Source: a virus. Taken from it: DNA of 64,000 nt. Each line of letters starts with the position of its first letter. Position 1 is the stretch's first letter. The position numbers were made by a program, and so were the translations under genes. Positions 1 to 29,400 of this stretch are shown piece after piece. Location of the stretch: IMG/VR virus record IMGVR_UViG_3300032770_000003, positions 107,495 to 171,494 of that record; one strand, given 5' to 3'. The notes under the pieces were generated by a model, which had not been told where the DNA came from, made no database searches, and saw only the letters and a program-made list of their open reading frames with translations.

Positions 1-376
1 CGCCGTGGAAATCTTTTTCACCAACCGTACAAACCCTGTGAAGGGAACGCGTCCGGGAGGAAATGCGCGCAAGTTCAAATACCTGCTCGAAAGTGGGTGG
101 CACATTCTGTGCATCATGGGTTCCAATCGTCGACGCAATCGACGACCCGGCAGTTTTCGTCCAGCCGACCAGATCACGGTTGAAACGGCCGATGCGGTAG
201 CGGCCTTTATCAAGCTGACCAAGCGGTACCCAACCATGATCCGTGAATATCGGGTGATTCGGTGTTCCGGTGAGCTTCTCACCAGTAGCCAGTACGATCT
301 CAACCATCTGGCCGGTGTACCAACGTCGGCTGACCTTTTTTGACGCACCACAGACGCGAACGTCGCCAGGGAAACA
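1..376 (-). mobile_element. Intein in the prohead protease (N-terminal part)
   Basis: Begins at Cys codon 376-374 directly after extein '...DVAITA'. Visible are block A (CFPGDVRV), the 'RRWYTGQMVEI' strand and block B (GTPNHPIFTDHG). It resembles the intein in the uracil-DNA glycosylase (28309-29121) block by block, so the two are the same family. The region between the Hint halves is overlapped on the + strand by an endonuclease-like reading frame ending at 343. The C-terminal splice junction is outside the window. Confidence 0.8.
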
Positions 377-844
377 GGCAGTAATCGCCACATCCTGCAG
401 CCAGCACTTGGCGATGGTATTCCCCTCTCGCCGAAGCACCTTGCCCTGGATCGAGAAACCAACCTTCCGATTGGACTCGTTGGCTGCGAGCGCGGTGATG
501 TGGTCCCACCAGTACTCAGCGCGCTCCTTGCCCTTATACAAAAACCCCTTCAACCAGAGCCCAGCCGGGGTGATCCGGCATTCCGCGGGTTCGCCGACCT
601 TGTGCTCAGGGCCCTCTTTGTGGTCGTCGTTGATGTAGCCGTACTTGAGGAAGTAGCCGTAGTCGATCCCGTTCTGACGGACCACTTCACCCTGAAGGTC
701 ACGGTCATCTGTGGACGCGACCCCTTGGATCCAGCGCTTGCCGTCCTTACTCTCAGCCTTGGAGATCTTCTCCACCGGCATGAAGAAGTGGAAGGTAGAA
801 CCGGTGCCCAGCAAACGGTCTTCTATACCGTCCACTAAGCGCAT
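1..844 (-). CDS. Prohead protease interrupted by an intein (3' end outside window)
   Basis: Capsid-maturation protease of the HK97 prohead type. I read it from ATG at 844, preceded by GGAGG at 8 nt and overlapping the end of the HNH gene. Extein residues 1-156 include GVASTDDRDLQGEVV and an 'INDDHKEGP' segment, the usual start of this fold with its likely catalytic His, then the 'VGFSIQG' strand. At position 376 the frame enters an intein beginning Cys-Phe-Pro-Gly, with Hint block B GTPNHPIF. The frame stays open to the window edge, so the C-extein and the catalytic Ser are not visible. In this operon the major capsid gene should follow further left. Family assignment is confident; the start is supported by the Shine-Dalgarno. 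Confidence 0.85.
   Translation of the reverse strand, partial: MRLVDGIEDRLLGTGSTFHFFMPVEKISKAESKDGKRWIQGVASTDDRDLQGEVVRQNGIDYGYFLKYGYINDDHKEGPEHKVGEPAECRITPAGLWLKGFLYKGKERAEYWWDHITALAANESNRKVGFSIQGKVLRREGNTIAKCWLQDVAITACFPGDVRVCGASKKVSRRWYTGQMVEIVLATGEKLTGTPNHPIFTDHGWVPLGQLDKGRYRIGRFNRDLVGWTKTAGSSIASTIGTHDAQNVPPTFEQVFELARISSRTRSLHRVCTVGEKDFHG
2..343 (+). CDS. Homing endonuclease-like ORF antisense to the intein (5' end outside window)
   Basis: An open frame on the + strand, opposite to all neighbours, entering from the window edge and stopping with TGA at 341-343, 31 nt before the intein N-terminus. Its C-terminal half parallels the + strand ORF at 28369-29049: 'FKYLLESGWHILCI' matches 'TKKLIELGWSVLYV', and 'EYRVIRCSGE' matches 'KYRVVRGSGE'. 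That companion has a Vsr-like (EDxHD) nuclease core. The last 25 residues are encoded by the complement of Hint block B, so part of the similarity could reflect the conserved intein sequence. Function is inferred from the more complete copy. Confidence 0.55.
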   Translation, partial: AVEIFFTNRTNPVKGTRPGGNARKFKYLLESGWHILCIMGSNRRRNRRPGSFRPADQITVETADAVAAFIKLTKRYPTMIREYRVIRCSGELLTSSQYDLNHLAGVPTSADLF

Positions 845-1362
845 GTCACGTGCCTCCATCTCTTCCCCTGAGTGATCAGAGCAATGGCGGAACGTGTGAC
901 ATTCAGCCTAGTGGCGATCCAACTCTGGGATCGCCCCAACCTTCGCCAGTTCAATACTTGCTGAATATCCGCTTCAGAAAGCTTAGCGCTACCACGCGGA
1001 TGAGCGGCGCCCTTTGGGGCATTGGTACGTCCCCACGCTACGCAATCAGCGCGATTCTGGCGGTGAGTACCCTCGCTCAGATGATCTGGATTCACACAGT
1101 GGCGGACATCGCAAGCGTGTAACGTTTCCATCCCCGGTAAGAGCTGGCGGCCTAGCTTCTGTTCCAAAACCAGCCTGGCAGCGATACGCGGACGACCGTT
1201 GAACCAAAACCACGCACAACCTTTGTTGTTCCTTGCACCTGTCCAGAGATGGCAAGGCCCCAGCCCTGGACGAGCCTCAGGCCCATTCAGGTCAATGAAC
1301 TTCCGGAACCGGAAGGTCTCGCCTTCACCAAGCAGCTGATCGTTGATCTCTGTGAGTCGCAT
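835..1362 (-). CDS. HNH endonuclease, free-standing
   Basis: A 175-residue protein with the phage HNH layout. An N-terminal 'CHLWTGARNNKG' strand is followed by 'METLHACDVRHCVNPDHL', containing the zinc/His residues and the N-x-x-H end of the motif, then 'GTHRQNRADC'. The C-terminal 50 residues form a helix-turn-helix (SQSWIATRLNVTRSAIA) that probably sets target specificity. It sits between head genes and overlaps the prohead protease start by 10 bp, as expected of an invasive homing gene. Nicking or cutting of DNA is inferred from family. No strong ribosome-binding site precedes the ATG. Confidence 0.85.
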   Translation of the reverse strand: MRLTEINDQLLGEGETFRFRKFIDLNGPEARPGLGPCHLWTGARNNKGCAWFWFNGRPRIAARLVLEQKLGRQLLPGMETLHACDVRHCVNPDHLSEGTHRQNRADCVAWGRTNAPKGAAHPRGSAKLSEADIQQVLNWRRLGRSQSWIATRLNVTRSAIALITQGKRWRHVTCA

Positions 1363-17320: not shown

Positions 17321-18037
17321 TCAAGCCTCCGCACACAACACGGACTGACGTGTGGTTTTTGTCAATCTCGTAATGTTGACTGAGCCGTCCGACTCCCTTG
17401 ATTGCACAGTTGCTAAAGCAACTTTCTTCATTACAGAACTGAGTCTGACACCACAAGCACGTGCCCACTGCTCTGGAGATTTGGCTGCCTTAGTACTGTT
17501 GCAGGGCTTGCACGCCGGAGCCAAGTTGTGTCGAGCGTGAAGTCCGCCCTTTACCAGAGGTACGATATGGTCAAGTGTCGTGGCGGCTCGTTTGCGGCAC
17601 CAAGCGCATTTGCCATCGAACGTACGAAAAAGGACGCGCAAGAATTCCAGACTAACAATCTCAACAGTGGCTGAGTGTATTCGTGCGCGACGACGATGCC
17701 AGCGCAACAAGGCACCAATTTTGCCCACAGGGCTGTAGTAATAGGCGCGGTTCTGTTTGAGTATCGCAGCCCTGTGCTTTGTATATCGAGAAGCGTGATA
17801 GGCCGCTATCTTTGTCTTGTTCGCCTGTCGGTAGGCGATGTCCTTTTCTCTGTTGTTACTGCGGTAACGTAATTCGATTTCACGAACCTTGGCGTAGTTG
17901 GTCTTGCGATAGACCTTGGCACGAAGGCGATGACACACACGACACCAACCTCCGTATCCATTCGGACAATTCTTATTCCTGACGAACGCACTGAGTGGAA
18001 GTGTGTGTCGACATTTGATACAAATGCGCGTGATCAT
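17321..18037 (-). CDS. HNH endonuclease, free-standing
   Basis: 238 residues. The N-terminus has 'CIKCRHTLPLSAF' and 'WCRVCHRLRAK' zinc pairs, then a basic linker. The HNH core follows: 'CAWCRKRAATTLDHIVPL' and 'NLAPACKPCNSTKAAK' (H-N-N residues with CxxC pairs). ATG overlaps the portal stop (ATGA). Insertion directly behind the portal, which itself holds an intein, fits a mobile gene. Confidence 0.88.
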   Translation of the reverse strand: MITRICIKCRHTLPLSAFVRNKNCPNGYGGWCRVCHRLRAKVYRKTNYAKVREIELRYRSNNREKDIAYRQANKTKIAAYHASRYTKHRAAILKQNRAYYYSPVGKIGALLRWHRRRARIHSATVEIVSLEFLRVLFRTFDGKCAWCRKRAATTLDHIVPLVKGGLHARHNLAPACKPCNSTKAAKSPEQWARACGVRLSSVMKKVALATVQSRESDGSVNITRLTKTTRQSVLCAEA

Positions 18038-21018
18038 TGTTTCATACCAGGGCCGCTTGCGGCCGCTTCATTATCTTGCCCGAAGTTGTCACTGTACTTC
18101 GGCCCAGCGGGTTTTCCTTCACCACCAGGACTACCACCGGGTTTACCTCCAGCTCCGGCGCCTCCTTGAGCCAATCCCTGCGCCTGAAGTGCGCTAATGT
18201 ATACCGGATTGAGGGGGACATCTCCACCTGGAAGTGGTGGCAGTGAAACCGTCTGTCTTCCTTCATTCAAACTCATGTAGCTGCTGATCTGCTCGACCAG
18301 CATCTCGTGTTTCTCGTTCTCGGACAGCTCATCGAGTCCGACGAACTCAAAGGTGAAGTGATCGTCGATCTTGTCGATGACGTGCTTGTTGATCAGCTTC
18401 GCGATGAACCGCAGAATTGGCTTGAGACCGCGGTCGCGCGAGGCTTTGAGCTTCCACTCCTGCGATGCCTCGAACAGCGGAGTCTGTTGCTGGCCTCCGT
18501 GGATCTCGAAGTTGATCTCAGCCGGATCGATCAGATACACGCCACAGGTGATCTTGATCAGATACTCAATCCACTTGCCGAACTCCATCTCCTGATTGGT
18601 CTTGGCGAGGTCAACCCACTCCAATCCTTCTGACTGGAGGATAGGAGTCTTCCAGCTGTTCTCGACGCCCGAGACCTGTGCGAGCCACTGCCGGCGGAAC
18701 CCTTCCAGCTGCTCAGGGGTGTAGTTGTCGCCCTTGAGGTTGAGGATGCCTTTGGGGGCAGTACCCTGAGAGAAGAACTTCCGGTTGTACTCCTCTGCGT
18801 AGAGGTGAGCGGTCACAATCGTGATGAGCTGCTCCAGCTCACCAAAGCCGTAACCCTGAATGTAGATGTCCGTGCGCGGGTTGCGAACCCCGAAGGACAG
18901 CTCGCTCGACGAGTAGACGTTCTCGATCTGGCCGTTGATGACCTGGACGTAGGCGATAGGACGGTTGCCGGAAAGCGGCTGTCCGTACTCACGCCCTTCG
19001 TAGAGGTTGGCGAAGCGACCCGGGACCGTGGGCTTGAAGCCCATGCGATCGTGGTACGACGTGTTCACGCCGACATAGCGATCGTCTGCTGCGATCCGGA
19101 TCGTGGCTGCATCGACCGCCCAAAACTCGTAGGGGAGGCCCATACCGTCGGGCACCACCTCGAAGCAGCAGTTGTGACTGGCGAAGCCTTCCGCTATGTA
19201 ACTATGATCCTCGTCAATCTCCAAGTTGAACACTGGGTAGTTCTCTACCCGCTCGCGAGTCACTTGTTCGATCTTGATGTAGAGGAATTCATCATCCTGA
19301 ATGAATGCACTACGCTGTTGCGTAGGAACAGGAATGTTCAGCAGGCGTCCATCGGACAGCGTCTGAAGACCTGTCCCACTGATGCGACCAACATACTTTT
19401 CTGAGTGATTGCGGCTATACGCCTCGTGCACGATCACCTGAGCCGGCACCACAGAACAACGGGTGTACATTCCCGCAGCTGCGAGCAATACCCGAAGTCC
19501 ACCAAAGAGCGCACGAGAGACTGTAGAAAAAGTCATAGAGGAGTTCGCTACGCTCCCATCACAGGCAAGGTAGCCGCGAAGGAAAGCCGCACGCACTTCG
19601 TCACTGGCTTCGAACATCCAAGATGGAACCCTCTTGTTGTGTGCACCATCACCGAAGTTCTCAGCCATGAAGCGGGCTAGCTCCACTGAGTTGCCAGTCA
19701 CTCCTGTGGCTGCACAGTCATCGTAACCAACGTCAGTCGTGCCAATTCCCAGGGAATCGAACACCTGGACGGCATGTATCAGCAGATGTTCATCATCTTT
19801 GTGGAAGGTCAAACCAACCGCGTTTGGTTCCTTGCGGGAGTTCTTTCCTGTGTGTCCGTTTGCTGTATAGAAGCCGCAAAAGGTCGCGAACTTCTCATCG
19901 AGGGTGACAGTATTAGGACGCGGAAGTGGTGAACGTGAAAAGCCGCGTTTCTCTGCTTCGTCCTTGACGAGCTGAATTGCTGGTCCGCCCCTGCGATAAT
20001 AGCCGCATAGAATTGCCCGCACAGTAACGACGTTGATGCCAGTCGCATCCGCAATCTCTCGATAAGGAATATTCGGGTACTGTCGAGCTTTGGTCTTGTC
20101 GAAGATCTGAAATTGAATCGGCTCAGTACGAATCGTAAGTTTGGGCTTTGGATAGACGAGATAGTGTTCGTCAGTCAGCTCCGAAGCTGGTGTCCAATCA
20201 GGCTTGATTCCCTTGCCGCGTGATGATGTCAGCCTGAACCATCGATCTGTAACTGCCAAGAACGGATGCTCGGAGGTGGCCCCGACTGACTGTCCACCAG
20301 ACCGGATCGTAATCAAATCACCCGTATACAAGCGGCGCATGCGCTCGACCACACGCCGAATGCGTCCGGTGTGGGTCCGGACTTCGGTTCCTACTTCGAT
20401 GGTCTCGATGGACTGAGGCACACCATCCGCGCACTCAATCTGCGTTGACGCAGGATGACACTGATCCAGAACCAAGCTGTCGCGGACGATCTTGCGCAGA
20501 AAGTTTTCGAAGTCGTCTCGATCGACACGCGCGTAGGGGTTGCGCTCAGCCCGACCACAGCGAAGGACGAAATCCTCCAGCTCCTTGATGAACTCCACCT
20601 CCGCCGGTGTCATCCGGTGGTCGGGGTCCTTGTGCCGAATCGCAAAGCCCAGCGAGCGCGTCCAGCGGTAGGGCTGCGCGAACGATGCCACCTGGGCCGC
20701 GCGAGTGTTGATGATCGCGTTTATGATCCCAAGCTGGGTGGCGATGCGCTTCAGGGTTTCGTAGGTCAGCGAGAAGCGACGATCCTTGTACCCCAGCGCG
20801 TACTGCAGACTGAGAGGATCGTGCATCCAGCTCTTCGGTGAGCGCTGGGGATCGGTGTTCGGGATCTGCTTCCAGGCTTTGCGCAGCTCTTGCGCGACGA
20901 TGACCGGAATGTGTTGCGTGGCCACCTGGGCAGCCGCCACCGTCTTGATGATCGACTCCATGTTGAGCCCGAGAGGGCCTGACATGGATGCACCTTTGTC
21001 CTTGCGCCGACGACTCAT
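18034..21018 (-). CDS. Phage portal protein with a LAGLIDADG intein
   Basis: 994 residues as translated. Exteins 1-186 and 617-994 together make a portal of about 564 residues. Portal-like landmarks are 'LGIINAIINTRAAQVASF', 'YGFGELEQLITIVTAHLYAE', 'FFSQGTAPKGILNLKG' and the late 'WVDLAKTNQEMEFGKWIEY'. The C-terminus is Gly/Pro-rich and probably disordered. The portal forms the dodecameric vertex ring for DNA packaging. Splicing is required for function, as the intein interrupts the 'SLVLDQ|CCFEVV' core strand. Translation starts at ATG 21018, just after the preceding stop. Confidence 0.88.
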   Translation of the reverse strand: MSRRRKDKGASMSGPLGLNMESIIKTVAAAQVATQHIPVIVAQELRKAWKQIPNTDPQRSPKSWMHDPLSLQYALGYKDRRFSLTYETLKRIATQLGIINAIINTRAAQVASFAQPYRWTRSLGFAIRHKDPDHRMTPAEVEFIKELEDFVLRCGRAERNPYARVDRDDFENFLRKIVRDSLVLDQCHPASTQIECADGVPQSIETIEVGTEVRTHTGRIRRVVERMRRLYTGDLITIRSGGQSVGATSEHPFLAVTDRWFRLTSSRGKGIKPDWTPASELTDEHYLVYPKPKLTIRTEPIQFQIFDKTKARQYPNIPYREIADATGINVVTVRAILCGYYRRGGPAIQLVKDEAEKRGFSRSPLPRPNTVTLDEKFATFCGFYTANGHTGKNSRKEPNAVGLTFHKDDEHLLIHAVQVFDSLGIGTTDVGYDDCAATGVTGNSVELARFMAENFGDGAHNKRVPSWMFEASDEVRAAFLRGYLACDGSVANSSMTFSTVSRALFGGLRVLLAAAGMYTRCSVVPAQVIVHEAYSRNHSEKYVGRISGTGLQTLSDGRLLNIPVPTQQRSAFIQDDEFLYIKIEQVTRERVENYPVFNLEIDEDHSYIAEGFASHNCCFEVVPDGMGLPYEFWAVDAATIRIAADDRYVGVNTSYHDRMGFKPTVPGRFANLYEGREYGQPLSGNRPIAYVQVINGQIENVYSSSELSFGVRNPRTDIYIQGYGFGELEQLITIVTAHLYAEEYNRKFFSQGTAPKGILNLKGDNYTPEQLEGFRRQWLAQVSGVENSWKTPILQSEGLEWVDLAKTNQEMEFGKWIEYLIKITCGVYLIDPAEINFEIHGGQQQTPLFEASQEWKLKASRDRGLKPILRFIAKLINKHVIDKIDDHFTFEFVGLDELSENEKHEMLVEQISSYMSLNEGRQTVSLPPLPGGDVPLNPVYISALQAQGLAQGGAGAGGKPGGSPGGEGKPAGPKYSDNFGQDNEAAASGPGMKQ
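19171..20460 (-). mobile_element. Intein with LAGLIDADG endonuclease in the portal
   Basis: 430 residues from Cys187 (CHPASTQIECADG) to Asn616 (ASHN), followed by +1 Cys. Block B is 'GATSEHPFLAV'. Two DOD motifs, 'FCGFYTANGHTG' and 'FLRGYLACDGSV', flank the homing domain, and the C-terminal block is 'VFNLEIDEDHSYIAEGFASH'. The first DOD acidic residue looks replaced by Asn, so cleavage may be weak. All splice residues (Cys1, His-Asn, +1 Cys) are present, so splicing should be active. Confidence 0.9.
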
Positions 21019-27987: not shown

Positions 27988-29400
27988 TCAGGCTGAGACG
28001 ATCTGGTGATCGAGCCACTCACGCACTGCACGCAGATCCTCATAGACCTGCGTTCGCGCCGATGGATTACGCGCTATGTAAGCTGGATGATACGATACCC
28101 GAGTAGGTCCGAACGCTGTGTTGTGCCAGATGCCCCGTAGGGATGACAGCGGTGCGGTACTGAGAGTAGGAGCCAAGAGCGCTGTGGTGGCGACTCGCCC
28201 GAGTGCCACGACAGTGAGCGGCCGCACCAACTCCAGCTGACGCTCAAAGTACGGACGGCACGCCGCCAGCTCCGCGGGTGCCGGCTGACGATTCCGGGGT
28301 GGCCTGCAGTTGGATACTAACATCCCATCTGCTATATACTGCCCGCTTCTGGTCTGCAAATTGTAAACATGACCACTAAACCACTTCCTTTCGATCTTCA
28401 GGATCTTAGCCAGCGCTACTTGCGTGGCGCTGGATTGGAACCTTTGTCCCGGGAAGTTCATATTGGGCAAGCTACGCTCAAGAAGTTGTTCCTGAAAGCC
28501 GGTGTCGCGGTACGAGACCGCTCCGCCGCTATGAAGACCCGGCTGCGCCAGATGACACAAGAGCAACGAAAGGAACTCACTGAAGCTGCGCACGCAGCTT
28601 GTCACGGCCGTGTACGCCCTCTCGAAGAATCTCAGCGAATTGCCGAAGCGCGTGCTCGCCGCTTTCAGGAAACAAAAAAGGTGGTCGGATCCTTCGAAGA
28701 TCTCTTGGTCAGTTGGATCAGACAGCGCGGGATTACTGTGACCCCGCAACAGCCTGTAAGGGGTTACAACCTCGATATTGGCATGTCCCCCGTCGCCGTG
28801 GAAGTTCACGTGGCTGTCAACCATCCATTTGCGGATGCCGACATCCGACAGCGTACGAAAAAGTTGATCGAACTTGGTTGGAGCGTGCTCTATGTCTGGA
28901 TCACCAAAGCCCACCCTCTTCAGCACAGGGTAGTGGATGAGATCATCGCCTTCCAACAGGCGCGAAAGAGGAAGCCGCCCTCTGCTGGAAAATACCGGGT
29001 GGTTCGGGGTTCCGGAGAGGTCACCCTTCTCCGTATGGACCTTGAGTAACGGCCCCTCATACCATCGTCGATAGATCTTCTCGATCCCTGAAGCACACAC
29101 CACAGTAGCTCCAGGAAAACACATCACTGGGTTAAGGATGTAGACCTGTTCCCGGGTGTAGCCCATCCAGGCGATGAACTCGTCGAGAATCGCACCCGCC
29201 CGGCCCACGAACGGAAGGCCCGACAGATCCTCGTTCTGTCCAGGCGCCTCACCAACGAACGCGACTGGCGGGCGAGCGACATTCCCAGTGCCGAATACGA
29301 CCTTGGTCCGCCCGCCCGCCAGTGGACACTTCGTGCAAGTCGAAGCCTCAGACCGGAGCGCGACCAACGCATCGATCTGCGCCGGTGTGCCCGGTTCCAT
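27988..29400 (-). CDS. Uracil-DNA glycosylase (family 4-like) with an intein
   Basis: 470 residues as translated. Exteins 1-93 and 365-470 give a 199-residue enzyme. It has 'CTKCPLAGGR' (first two iron-sulfur Cys), 'FVGEAPGQNEDLSGLPFVGR' (catalytic motif), then 'CRPPRNRQP' and 'AACRPYF' (third and fourth Cys), and 'SYHPAYIARNP'. It removes uracil from DNA and may protect or prepare phage DNA. The intein sits exactly before the third cluster Cys, so the [4Fe-4S] site exists only after splicing. Start ATG overlaps the upstream stop (TAATG). Confidence 0.85.
   Translation of the reverse strand: MEPGTPAQIDALVALRSEASTCTKCPLAGGRTKVVFGTGNVARPPVAFVGEAPGQNEDLSGLPFVGRAGAILDEFIAWMGYTREQVYILNPVMCFPGATVVCASGIEKIYRRWYEGPLLKVHTEKGDLSGTPNHPVFSSRGRLPLSRLLEGDDLIHYPVLKRVGFGDPDIEHAPTKFDQLFRTLSDVGIRKWMVDSHVNFHGDGGHANIEVVTPYRLLRGHSNPALSDPTDQEIFEGSDHLFCFLKAASTRFGNSLRFFERAYTAVTSCVRSFSEFLSLLLCHLAQPGLHSGGAVSYRDTGFQEQLLERSLPNMNFPGQRFQSSATQVALAKILKIERKWFSGHVYNLQTRSGQYIADGMLVSNCRPPRNRQPAPAELAACRPYFERQLELVRPLTVVALGRVATTALLAPTLSTAPLSSLRGIWHNTAFGPTRVSYHPAYIARNPSARTQVYEDLRAVREWLDHQIVSA
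28309..29121 (-). mobile_element. Intein in the uracil-DNA glycosylase, with antisense endonuclease gene
   Basis: 271 residues from Cys94 (CFPGATVVCASG) to Asn364 (MLVSN), +1 residue Cys. Block B is 'GTPNHPVF', C-terminal blocks 'GHVYNLQTRSGQYIADGM'. The penultimate residue is Ser rather than His. The ~165 central residues show no endonuclease motif in this strand. They are the complement of the + strand ORF at 28369-29049. The frame nevertheless stays open throughout. Confidence 0.85.
28369..29049 (+). CDS. Vsr-like (EDxHD-type) homing endonuclease, antisense inside an intein
   Basis: 226 residues on the + strand amid leftward genes, wholly within the intein interval. The N-terminus has HTH-like helices ('LSREVHIGQATLKKLFLKAG'), the linker is Arg-rich, then the nuclease core: 'SFEDLLVSWIRQRGI', 'GYNLDIGMSPVAVEVHV' and 'RQRTKKLIELGWSVLYVWIT'. 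This E...D...ExxH arrangement resembles Vsr-related homing endonucleases associated with inteins and introns. The last 20 residues are the complement of Hint block B. No strong Shine-Dalgarno precedes the ATG. A related ORF lies opposite the prohead protease intein. Confidence 0.7.
   Translation: MTTKPLPFDLQDLSQRYLRGAGLEPLSREVHIGQATLKKLFLKAGVAVRDRSAAMKTRLRQMTQEQRKELTEAAHAACHGRVRPLEESQRIAEARARRFQETKKVVGSFEDLLVSWIRQRGITVTPQQPVRGYNLDIGMSPVAVEVHVAVNHPFADADIRQRTKKLIELGWSVLYVWITKAHPLQHRVVDEIIAFQQARKRKPPSAGKYRVVRGSGEVTLLRMDLE

Follow-up and report, generated by a model that had tools for sequence, protein, structure and literature searches.

Can one stretch of phage DNA encode a protein-splicing element on one strand and, on the other strand of the same bases, the endonuclease that makes this element mobile? 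The question is raised by the left edge of a 64,000-nucleotide stretch of DNA (the window, G000:C1:107495-171494), which forms the right-hand end of a virus record of 171,494 bases and begins inside the intein of a prohead-protease gene, with an open frame on the opposite strand. A first-pass annotation had compared this pair with an intein in a glycosylase gene of the same window, and had suggested that intein and antisense endonuclease form a heritable mobile unit. Our analysis makes it very probable that both copies consist of a class 1 intein and a complete antisense gene for an I-Bth0305I-like homing endonuclease, although splicing, expression, cleavage and homing are all inferred. The features of both loci are collected in Table 1.

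Table 1. Features of the two inteins and of their antisense genes. Positions without prefix are those of the window; L002 is the contig extended to the left by about 7.5 kb, in which position = window position + 7494.
Feature	Position	Strand	Remarks
Prohead-protease intein, whole	L002:7025-7870 = G000:C1:107025-107870	-	282 aa, CFPG..VAHN/S; blocks A, B, F, G
Protease intein, N-terminal part inside window	1..376	-	remainder, up to 470 bases, left of window
Antisense endonuclease gene of protease intein, whole	L002:7085-7837	+	250 aa from ATG
Antisense endonuclease of protease intein, C-terminal part	1..343	+	ORF 2..343 open to left edge
Intein block A, CFPG, nucleophile Cys1 (protease intein)	365..376	-	motif
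Intein block B, TPNHP (protease intein)	251..265	-	opposite strand codes RVIRC tail motif of endonuclease
N-terminal extein, prohead (head maturation) protease	377..859	-	phrog_1028, E 2.7e-44
Intein of family-4 uracil-DNA glycosylase	28309..29121	-	271 aa, CFPG..LVSN/C
Antisense endonuclease in glycosylase intein	28369..29049	+	226 aa; HTH and PD-(D/E)XK-type core; Y133, N134, D136, E145
Endonuclease ATG start codon (glycosylase copy)	28369..28371	+	antisense to block-F His codon of GHVYNL
Sigma70-like promoter TGGATA-18-TATACT	28311..28340	+	upstream of endonuclease, within intein C-terminal coding sequence; consensus match only
C-terminal extein, uracil-DNA glycosylase	27988..28308	-	TIGR00758
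N-terminal extein, uracil-DNA glycosylase	29122..29400	-	TIGR00758

The leftward extension of the contig restored a single 568-aa ORF (L002:6647-8353, - strand) which reads from protease through intein to protease without a break, and with it the whole antisense gene. The proposal would have failed if the + strand ORF had proved to be a short fragment without a nuclease core; instead, the complete ORF carries an N-terminal helix-turn-helix (HTH) and a PD-(D/E)XK-type nuclease core. No Pfam or NCBIfam match was obtained for this protease-side endonuclease. Its catalytic Glu codon occupies window positions 8-10, and the YNxD motif lies just outside the window, on the left. The endonuclease had been expected to start just inside the C-terminal block of the intein, and the ATG is indeed located exactly 60 nt inside the intein C-end, the same distance as in the glycosylase copy and in nearly all relatives. 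At the other end, the distance between the endonuclease stop and the intein N-terminus had been given as 72 nt for the glycosylase copy, which stands, and as 31 nt for the protease copy, which was measured as 33 nt and has to be corrected. Blocks A and B of the protease intein were found on the - strand as described. In both copies the antisense gene takes up nearly the full length of the intein, and the two frames lie exactly back to back, with codon position 1 opposing position 3.

The second host gene encodes a family-4 uracil-DNA glycosylase (UDG), whose extein matched TIGR00758 in two stretches (E 1.1e-45). The inteins of the two genes are homologous over their entire length (27%, E 2e-21); the two antisense ORFs, already regarded as related in the first-pass annotation, share 31% over 190 aa (E 3e-16), and the nucleotide comparison of both inteins, which had been proposed as a check, gave 61.6% identity over ungapped positions. 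A maximum-likelihood tree built from 92 endonucleases made the two copies sisters in 0% of 200 bootstraps. Because they were never sisters, though both are long branches, a separate acquisition of the two copies is favoured as a better reading than a recent duplication, as far as such a tree can tell.

Both elements meet the description of class 1 inteins by their motifs and their predicted Hint fold, from which splicing is inferred. The motifs CFPG, TPNHP, HVYNL and either VAHN/S or LVSN/C are present, with Ser as the penultimate residue in the glycosylase copy, and C1, T38, H41 and N271 are invariant across 50 inteins. The model of the UDG intein is confident at residues 1-62 and 235-271, which are the two Hint halves, and of low confidence opposite the HTH and linker of the endonuclease; its fold matches were the GyrA, RadA, RecA and VMA inteins, with a probability of up to 1.00. 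Neither the protease nor the UDG intein gave a LAGLIDADG or HNH hit in Pfam.

The antisense product meets the expectation for a relative of the EDxHD / I-Bth0305I homing endonucleases, which fall into the EDxHD / Vsr / DUF559 group, in the sequence and modelled fold of its catalytic domain. Profile searches retrieved I-Bth0305I (3r3p, E 5e-6), a DUF559-like nuclease (3hrl, E 5e-5) and the HTH domains of resolvases and transposases, and the Pfam family MTES_1575 matched the UDG-copy endonuclease with an E of 1.8e-5, which does not reach the curated cut-off. Modelled with AlphaFold (pLDDT 92.5), the same protein has an alpha-beta-beta-beta-alpha-beta core, and its best PDB match in Foldseek was again I-Bth0305I 3r3p (probability 1.00, E 4e-3). 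The conserved HD pair of the EDxHD signature was not identified in the family, which keeps E-D-E-R instead (E110, D136, E145 and R162). The active-site Y and D are invariant in 92/92 sequences through both synonymous codons each, the N is found in 90/92, and the E is invariant in 92/92 (GAA 81, GAG 11).

The arrangement is not confined to this phage. The two endonucleases matched 126 and 109 phage records by tblastn, and in the first 22 records opened the match lies antisense within one uninterrupted host gene. Scans of IMG/VR with group alignments contributed 121 further loci; single-sequence scans of viral contigs with each of the two endonucleases and a scan of genome contigs found no relatives, and an alignment of all 18 sequences was too diverse for scanning. 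The 148 loci with a positive hit, which include the window, its own genome and overlapping copies, form 94 clusters at 85% nucleotide identity. A scan with an alignment of the sense inteins returned at least 539 relatives, and the antisense gene is present in 80/80 of the best 80. The host genes are mostly those of Phage_Mu_F minor head proteins and portal-MuF fusions; the others encode terminase (L048), dCMP deaminase (L009), UDG and proteases. The host gene is a single uninterrupted ORF in the inspected loci, and the criterion of a split intein or fractured gene is not met. Snoke and, by its tblastn matches, KMB36 are members of the family, and no free-standing member of the endonuclease family appeared in any search made. 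Edwardsiella MSW-3 was considered as an intein without the antisense gene and rejected, since its antisense gene is intact. The tblastn spans of L009 and L024 seemed to contain stops, but these precede the start codon and are not inside the gene. The claim that the antisense architecture is not due to chance is borne out by its recurrence in every relative examined. The idea of a heritable mobile unit gains support as well, the same unit being found in several genes of unrelated phages, with mobility inferred from the precise empty sites described below.

A sceptic could hold that only the intein is real and that the + strand ORF is merely its shadow frame, since the back-to-back antisense frame of GC-rich genes often happens to be open. 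In 148/148 loci no stop interrupts the back-to-back frame along the endonuclease, with stops present in the other two antisense frames; in the best 80 intein-found loci stops occur only beyond the endonuclease ends, even at 33% GC, and one 33% GC virus has an open antisense gene against 51 stops in a neighbouring frame. Back-to-back stops amount to 1.69 per 100 codons in exteins and to 0 in 24,754 codons under the endonuclease. Over 87 clusters, TTA, CTA and TCA were absent from the endonuclease frame, where they would stop the intein (0 observed, 466 expected), and from the intein frame, where they would stop the endonuclease (0 observed, 652 expected), the expected counts being predicted from codon usage in exteins. 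The endonuclease frame was defined as an open ORF, so the stop count is partly ascertained. Of 10214 windows of 250 codons in the exteins, 2948 (29%) likewise have an open back-to-back frame, so that openness proves little in a single GC-rich locus, such as those of this phage; it nevertheless persists in loci of 33-46% GC, where 10-30 stops per gene are expected. Because openness alone is weak evidence in GC-rich loci, a direct test was made, in which one frame had its synonymous codons shuffled and the other was scored for conservation, using sequence pairs of <40% identity; the sequences are related, so the effect sizes count and not the z-scores. The similarity of the whole endonuclease was 0.933, compared with 0.080 if only the intein were preserved, and that of the whole intein was 0.563, compared with 0.091 if only the endonuclease were preserved. 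The HTH region is constrained for the endonuclease only (endonuclease 1.171 vs 0.047; intein 0.038 vs -0.005), the block A/B side mainly for the intein (intein 1.568 vs 0.258; endonuclease 0.520 vs 0.159), and the nuclease core for both proteins (1.369 vs 0.289 and 0.834 vs 0.364). Within the limits of codon statistics, these values show that selection acts on both proteins. A mere shadow frame, which leaves unexplained an endonuclease conserved far above the level set by the intein, even in regions without intein conservation, as well as the match in fold and sequence to a known homing endonuclease and the presence of Shine-Dalgarno and start signals, has next to no credibility.

The converse objection is that only the endonuclease is real, the sense reading being an open pass-through without protein splicing, like the ShiLan insertion discussed below. 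Judged by the shuffles, the middle of the intein is indeed filler for the nuclease gene, unconserved and modelled with low confidence, and the splicing blocks dominate at the intein N-terminal end. It is there that the objection fails, with blocks A and B conserved beyond the constraint from the endonuclease (1.57 vs 0.26 for the intein). The invariance of Cys1, TxxH and the C-terminal Asn in the 50 inteins, the intein ends that model as Hint and match intein structures, and the location of the insertions in head genes that are likely essential speak against it too, and it can be granted only a sliver more credence than the shadow frame. The preferred reading of two genuine proteins also fits one motif that is putatively constrained on both strands. 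The intein FHGD lies opposite the VAVE strand of the nuclease (D 88/92, G 87/92, H 82/92, F or L 92/92), and the VAVE codons are locked to GCC (84) and GTG (81), beyond what selection on the nuclease alone requires; on this comparison FHGD is independently conserved in the intein, with no role assigned to it. In the protease intein FHGD faces the endonuclease Glu at window positions 1-10; the glycosylase intein has the equivalent motif within 28309-29121.

Signals for expression of the endonuclease appear to be embedded in the intein. In the 76 clusters with a recognisable block F, the endonuclease start lies opposite the first residue of this block (HVYNL) and is ATG in 57 and GTG in 6, and the block-F Leu codon is CTC in 57/76, against 16.9 expected. 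GGAG or GAGG is found up to 18 nt upstream of the endonuclease in 45/70, compared with 14.2 when synonymous codons were redrawn, and sigma70-like promoters with at least 10/12 matches lie opposite block G in 19/70, compared with 3.7 in the redraw test; five loci carry a perfect TTGACA-TATAAT there. The glycosylase copy has a weak Shine-Dalgarno sequence, CAAATTGTAAAC-ATG. In the protease copy a promoter match was looked for and none was found, and a terminator-like hairpin over the 3' end of its endonuclease is within the range of chance. By these counts block F also supplies, on its opposite strand, the start codon and the ribosome-binding site for the endonuclease, whose expression is inferred.

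The best view of mobility comes from the minor-head gene, the only site for which precise empty sites were examined, the two sites of our own phage not being included. Snoke carries the intein in this gene, and the homologous genes of fEg-Eco19 and K1ind1 are intein-less; the joined Snoke exteins are identical to fEg-Eco19 at 977/1044 positions and to K1ind1 at 941/1044, with no gap. Among the 230 records matched by the Snoke gene in megablast, 58 cover at least 80% of it, and many Kagunavirus records among the matches listed cover about 55% in two pieces. A distribution so patchy and site-precise is as homing would predict, homing itself being an inference from the compared genes. Kagunavirus fEg-Eco06 (L020) has its intein elsewhere in the minor head gene, about 20 codons upstream of the insertion point in Snoke (L004, antisense gene at L004:2468-3220).

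These data suggest a mechanism in which the sense strand would be read into the host protein together with the intein, which would then excise itself, and the antisense strand into a free endonuclease starting at the ATG opposite the block-F His. Translation of the latter may rely on the Shine-Dalgarno sequence that faces the Asn-Leu codons of block F, and its transcription may, in many relatives, be driven by the sigma70-type promoter opposite block G. The endonuclease would presumably cut the host gene of co-infecting phages where this gene lacks the intein, and repair of the cut allele would copy in the intein and the endonuclease gene together. It is conceivable that the dual coding is real and the nuclease serves some purpose other than homing, for example defence against other phages or the exchange of genome regions; nucleases of the DUF559/MTES_1575 type are found in other systems, and no activity data are available. 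But the nuclease is nested in an intein, its best fold match is a homing endonuclease, and the family occupies several unrelated host genes with precise empty alleles in close relatives, so that we consider such a role unlikely, though less easily dismissed than the loss of either protein, and retain homing as the preferred reading.

Several known systems resemble parts of this arrangement. I-Bth0305I (EDxHD; 3r3p) shares the nuclease fold, the helix Glu, a matching strand pair and the location in a phage mobile element, but it is annotated as a mobile intron protein, whereas the gene described here runs antisense to an intein and its product carries an HTH region at the N-terminus. Conventional LAGLIDADG or HNH inteins likewise unite intein and nuclease in one mobile unit; their nuclease is a sense-strand domain of the intein protein, not a separate antisense gene. 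The fractured genes that Dassa is said to have described in 2009 reportedly contain split inteins with EDxHD endonuclease genes, the host gene being split around the endonuclease. They also tie an intein to a nuclease that belongs to the same broad group and has a gene to itself, whereas here host gene and intein form one ORF that overlaps the nuclease gene. The nearest known concept is the ShiLan-type element, a hidden HNH endonuclease within an in-frame insertion of a phage gene (Arsenault 2025, PMC11855218). There too a homing nuclease is concealed in another frame of the insertion, but it is an HNH nuclease in the third frame of the same strand without a splicing domain, and not, as here, a PD-(D/E)XK-type core on the opposite strand of an element with full intein blocks. 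The minor-head inteins of the Guernseyvirinae phages Snoke (PMC6776784) and vKMB36 (PMC11162368) belong to the present family; the published passages on them describe the sense intein, the one on Snoke also noting the intein-less K1ind2, and make no mention of an antisense endonuclease. The full-text literature searched, which does not cover bioRxiv preprints, yielded no account of inteins whose antisense strand codes for an endonuclease, and priority remains open. A 2025 preprint on actinobacteriophage inteins of non-canonical architecture is said, to judge by its title, to concern unusual layouts and may already report part of the family. Gordonia MuF phages carry the family of inteins with an antisense endonuclease. 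As a way to pack a mobile element, the back-to-back arrangement of intein and endonuclease seems not to have been described before.

The same genome contains other elements of this general kind. The portal protein (18034-21018, - strand) bears a conventional intein with a sense-strand LAGLIDADG nuclease (Pfam LAGLIDADG_3, E 2.4e-11), whose antisense frames contain 10, 22 and 18 stops. A further intein, by eye with a sense-strand HNH-type nuclease, is present in a ribonucleotide reductase outside the window (L149, G000:C1:55045-55794), and the phage therefore has at least four inteins. Free-standing HNH endonuclease ORFs adjoin the protease gene (835-1362, - strand) and the portal gene (17321-18037, - strand), both of which are intein-bearing. 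A TTCTGTGCGGATCG-like motif occurs at 15 sites of the window, against 0.88 expected, 14 of them on the - strand (e.g. 25712, 27966, 32034, 38335, 61433 and 63351, all -); with many copies just upstream of - strand genes, it is possibly a phage-specific promoter or leader.

It is possible, and we propose it only tentatively, that these elements form a separate and widespread class of mobile inteins, in which an endonuclease gene, complete with a promoter, a ribosome-binding site and a start codon of its own, lies antisense to the splicing motifs. The element may then escape the decay phase of the homing cycle, because with the two genes interlocked the endonuclease could hardly be deleted while splicing is kept. 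Neither the 148 loci nor the best 80 of at least 539 intein-found relatives included a copy that was eroded or lacked the endonuclease; each scan ranked its loci by similarity, so that eroded copies may be under-represented. Two conserved, unrelated protein domains are rarely found in antisense overlap over their full length, and such cases are usually contested; the recurrence of this one in some 90 divergent clusters, in one register and one geometry, makes the selection for dual coding measurable. It would also mean that a family of homing endonucleases is hidden under the head-gene annotations of Jersey-like Salmonella phages, Gordonia, Pseudomonas and Aaphi23. The arrangement offers a concrete hypothesis, that a selfish gene may avoid its loss by overprinting the very element that shelters it.
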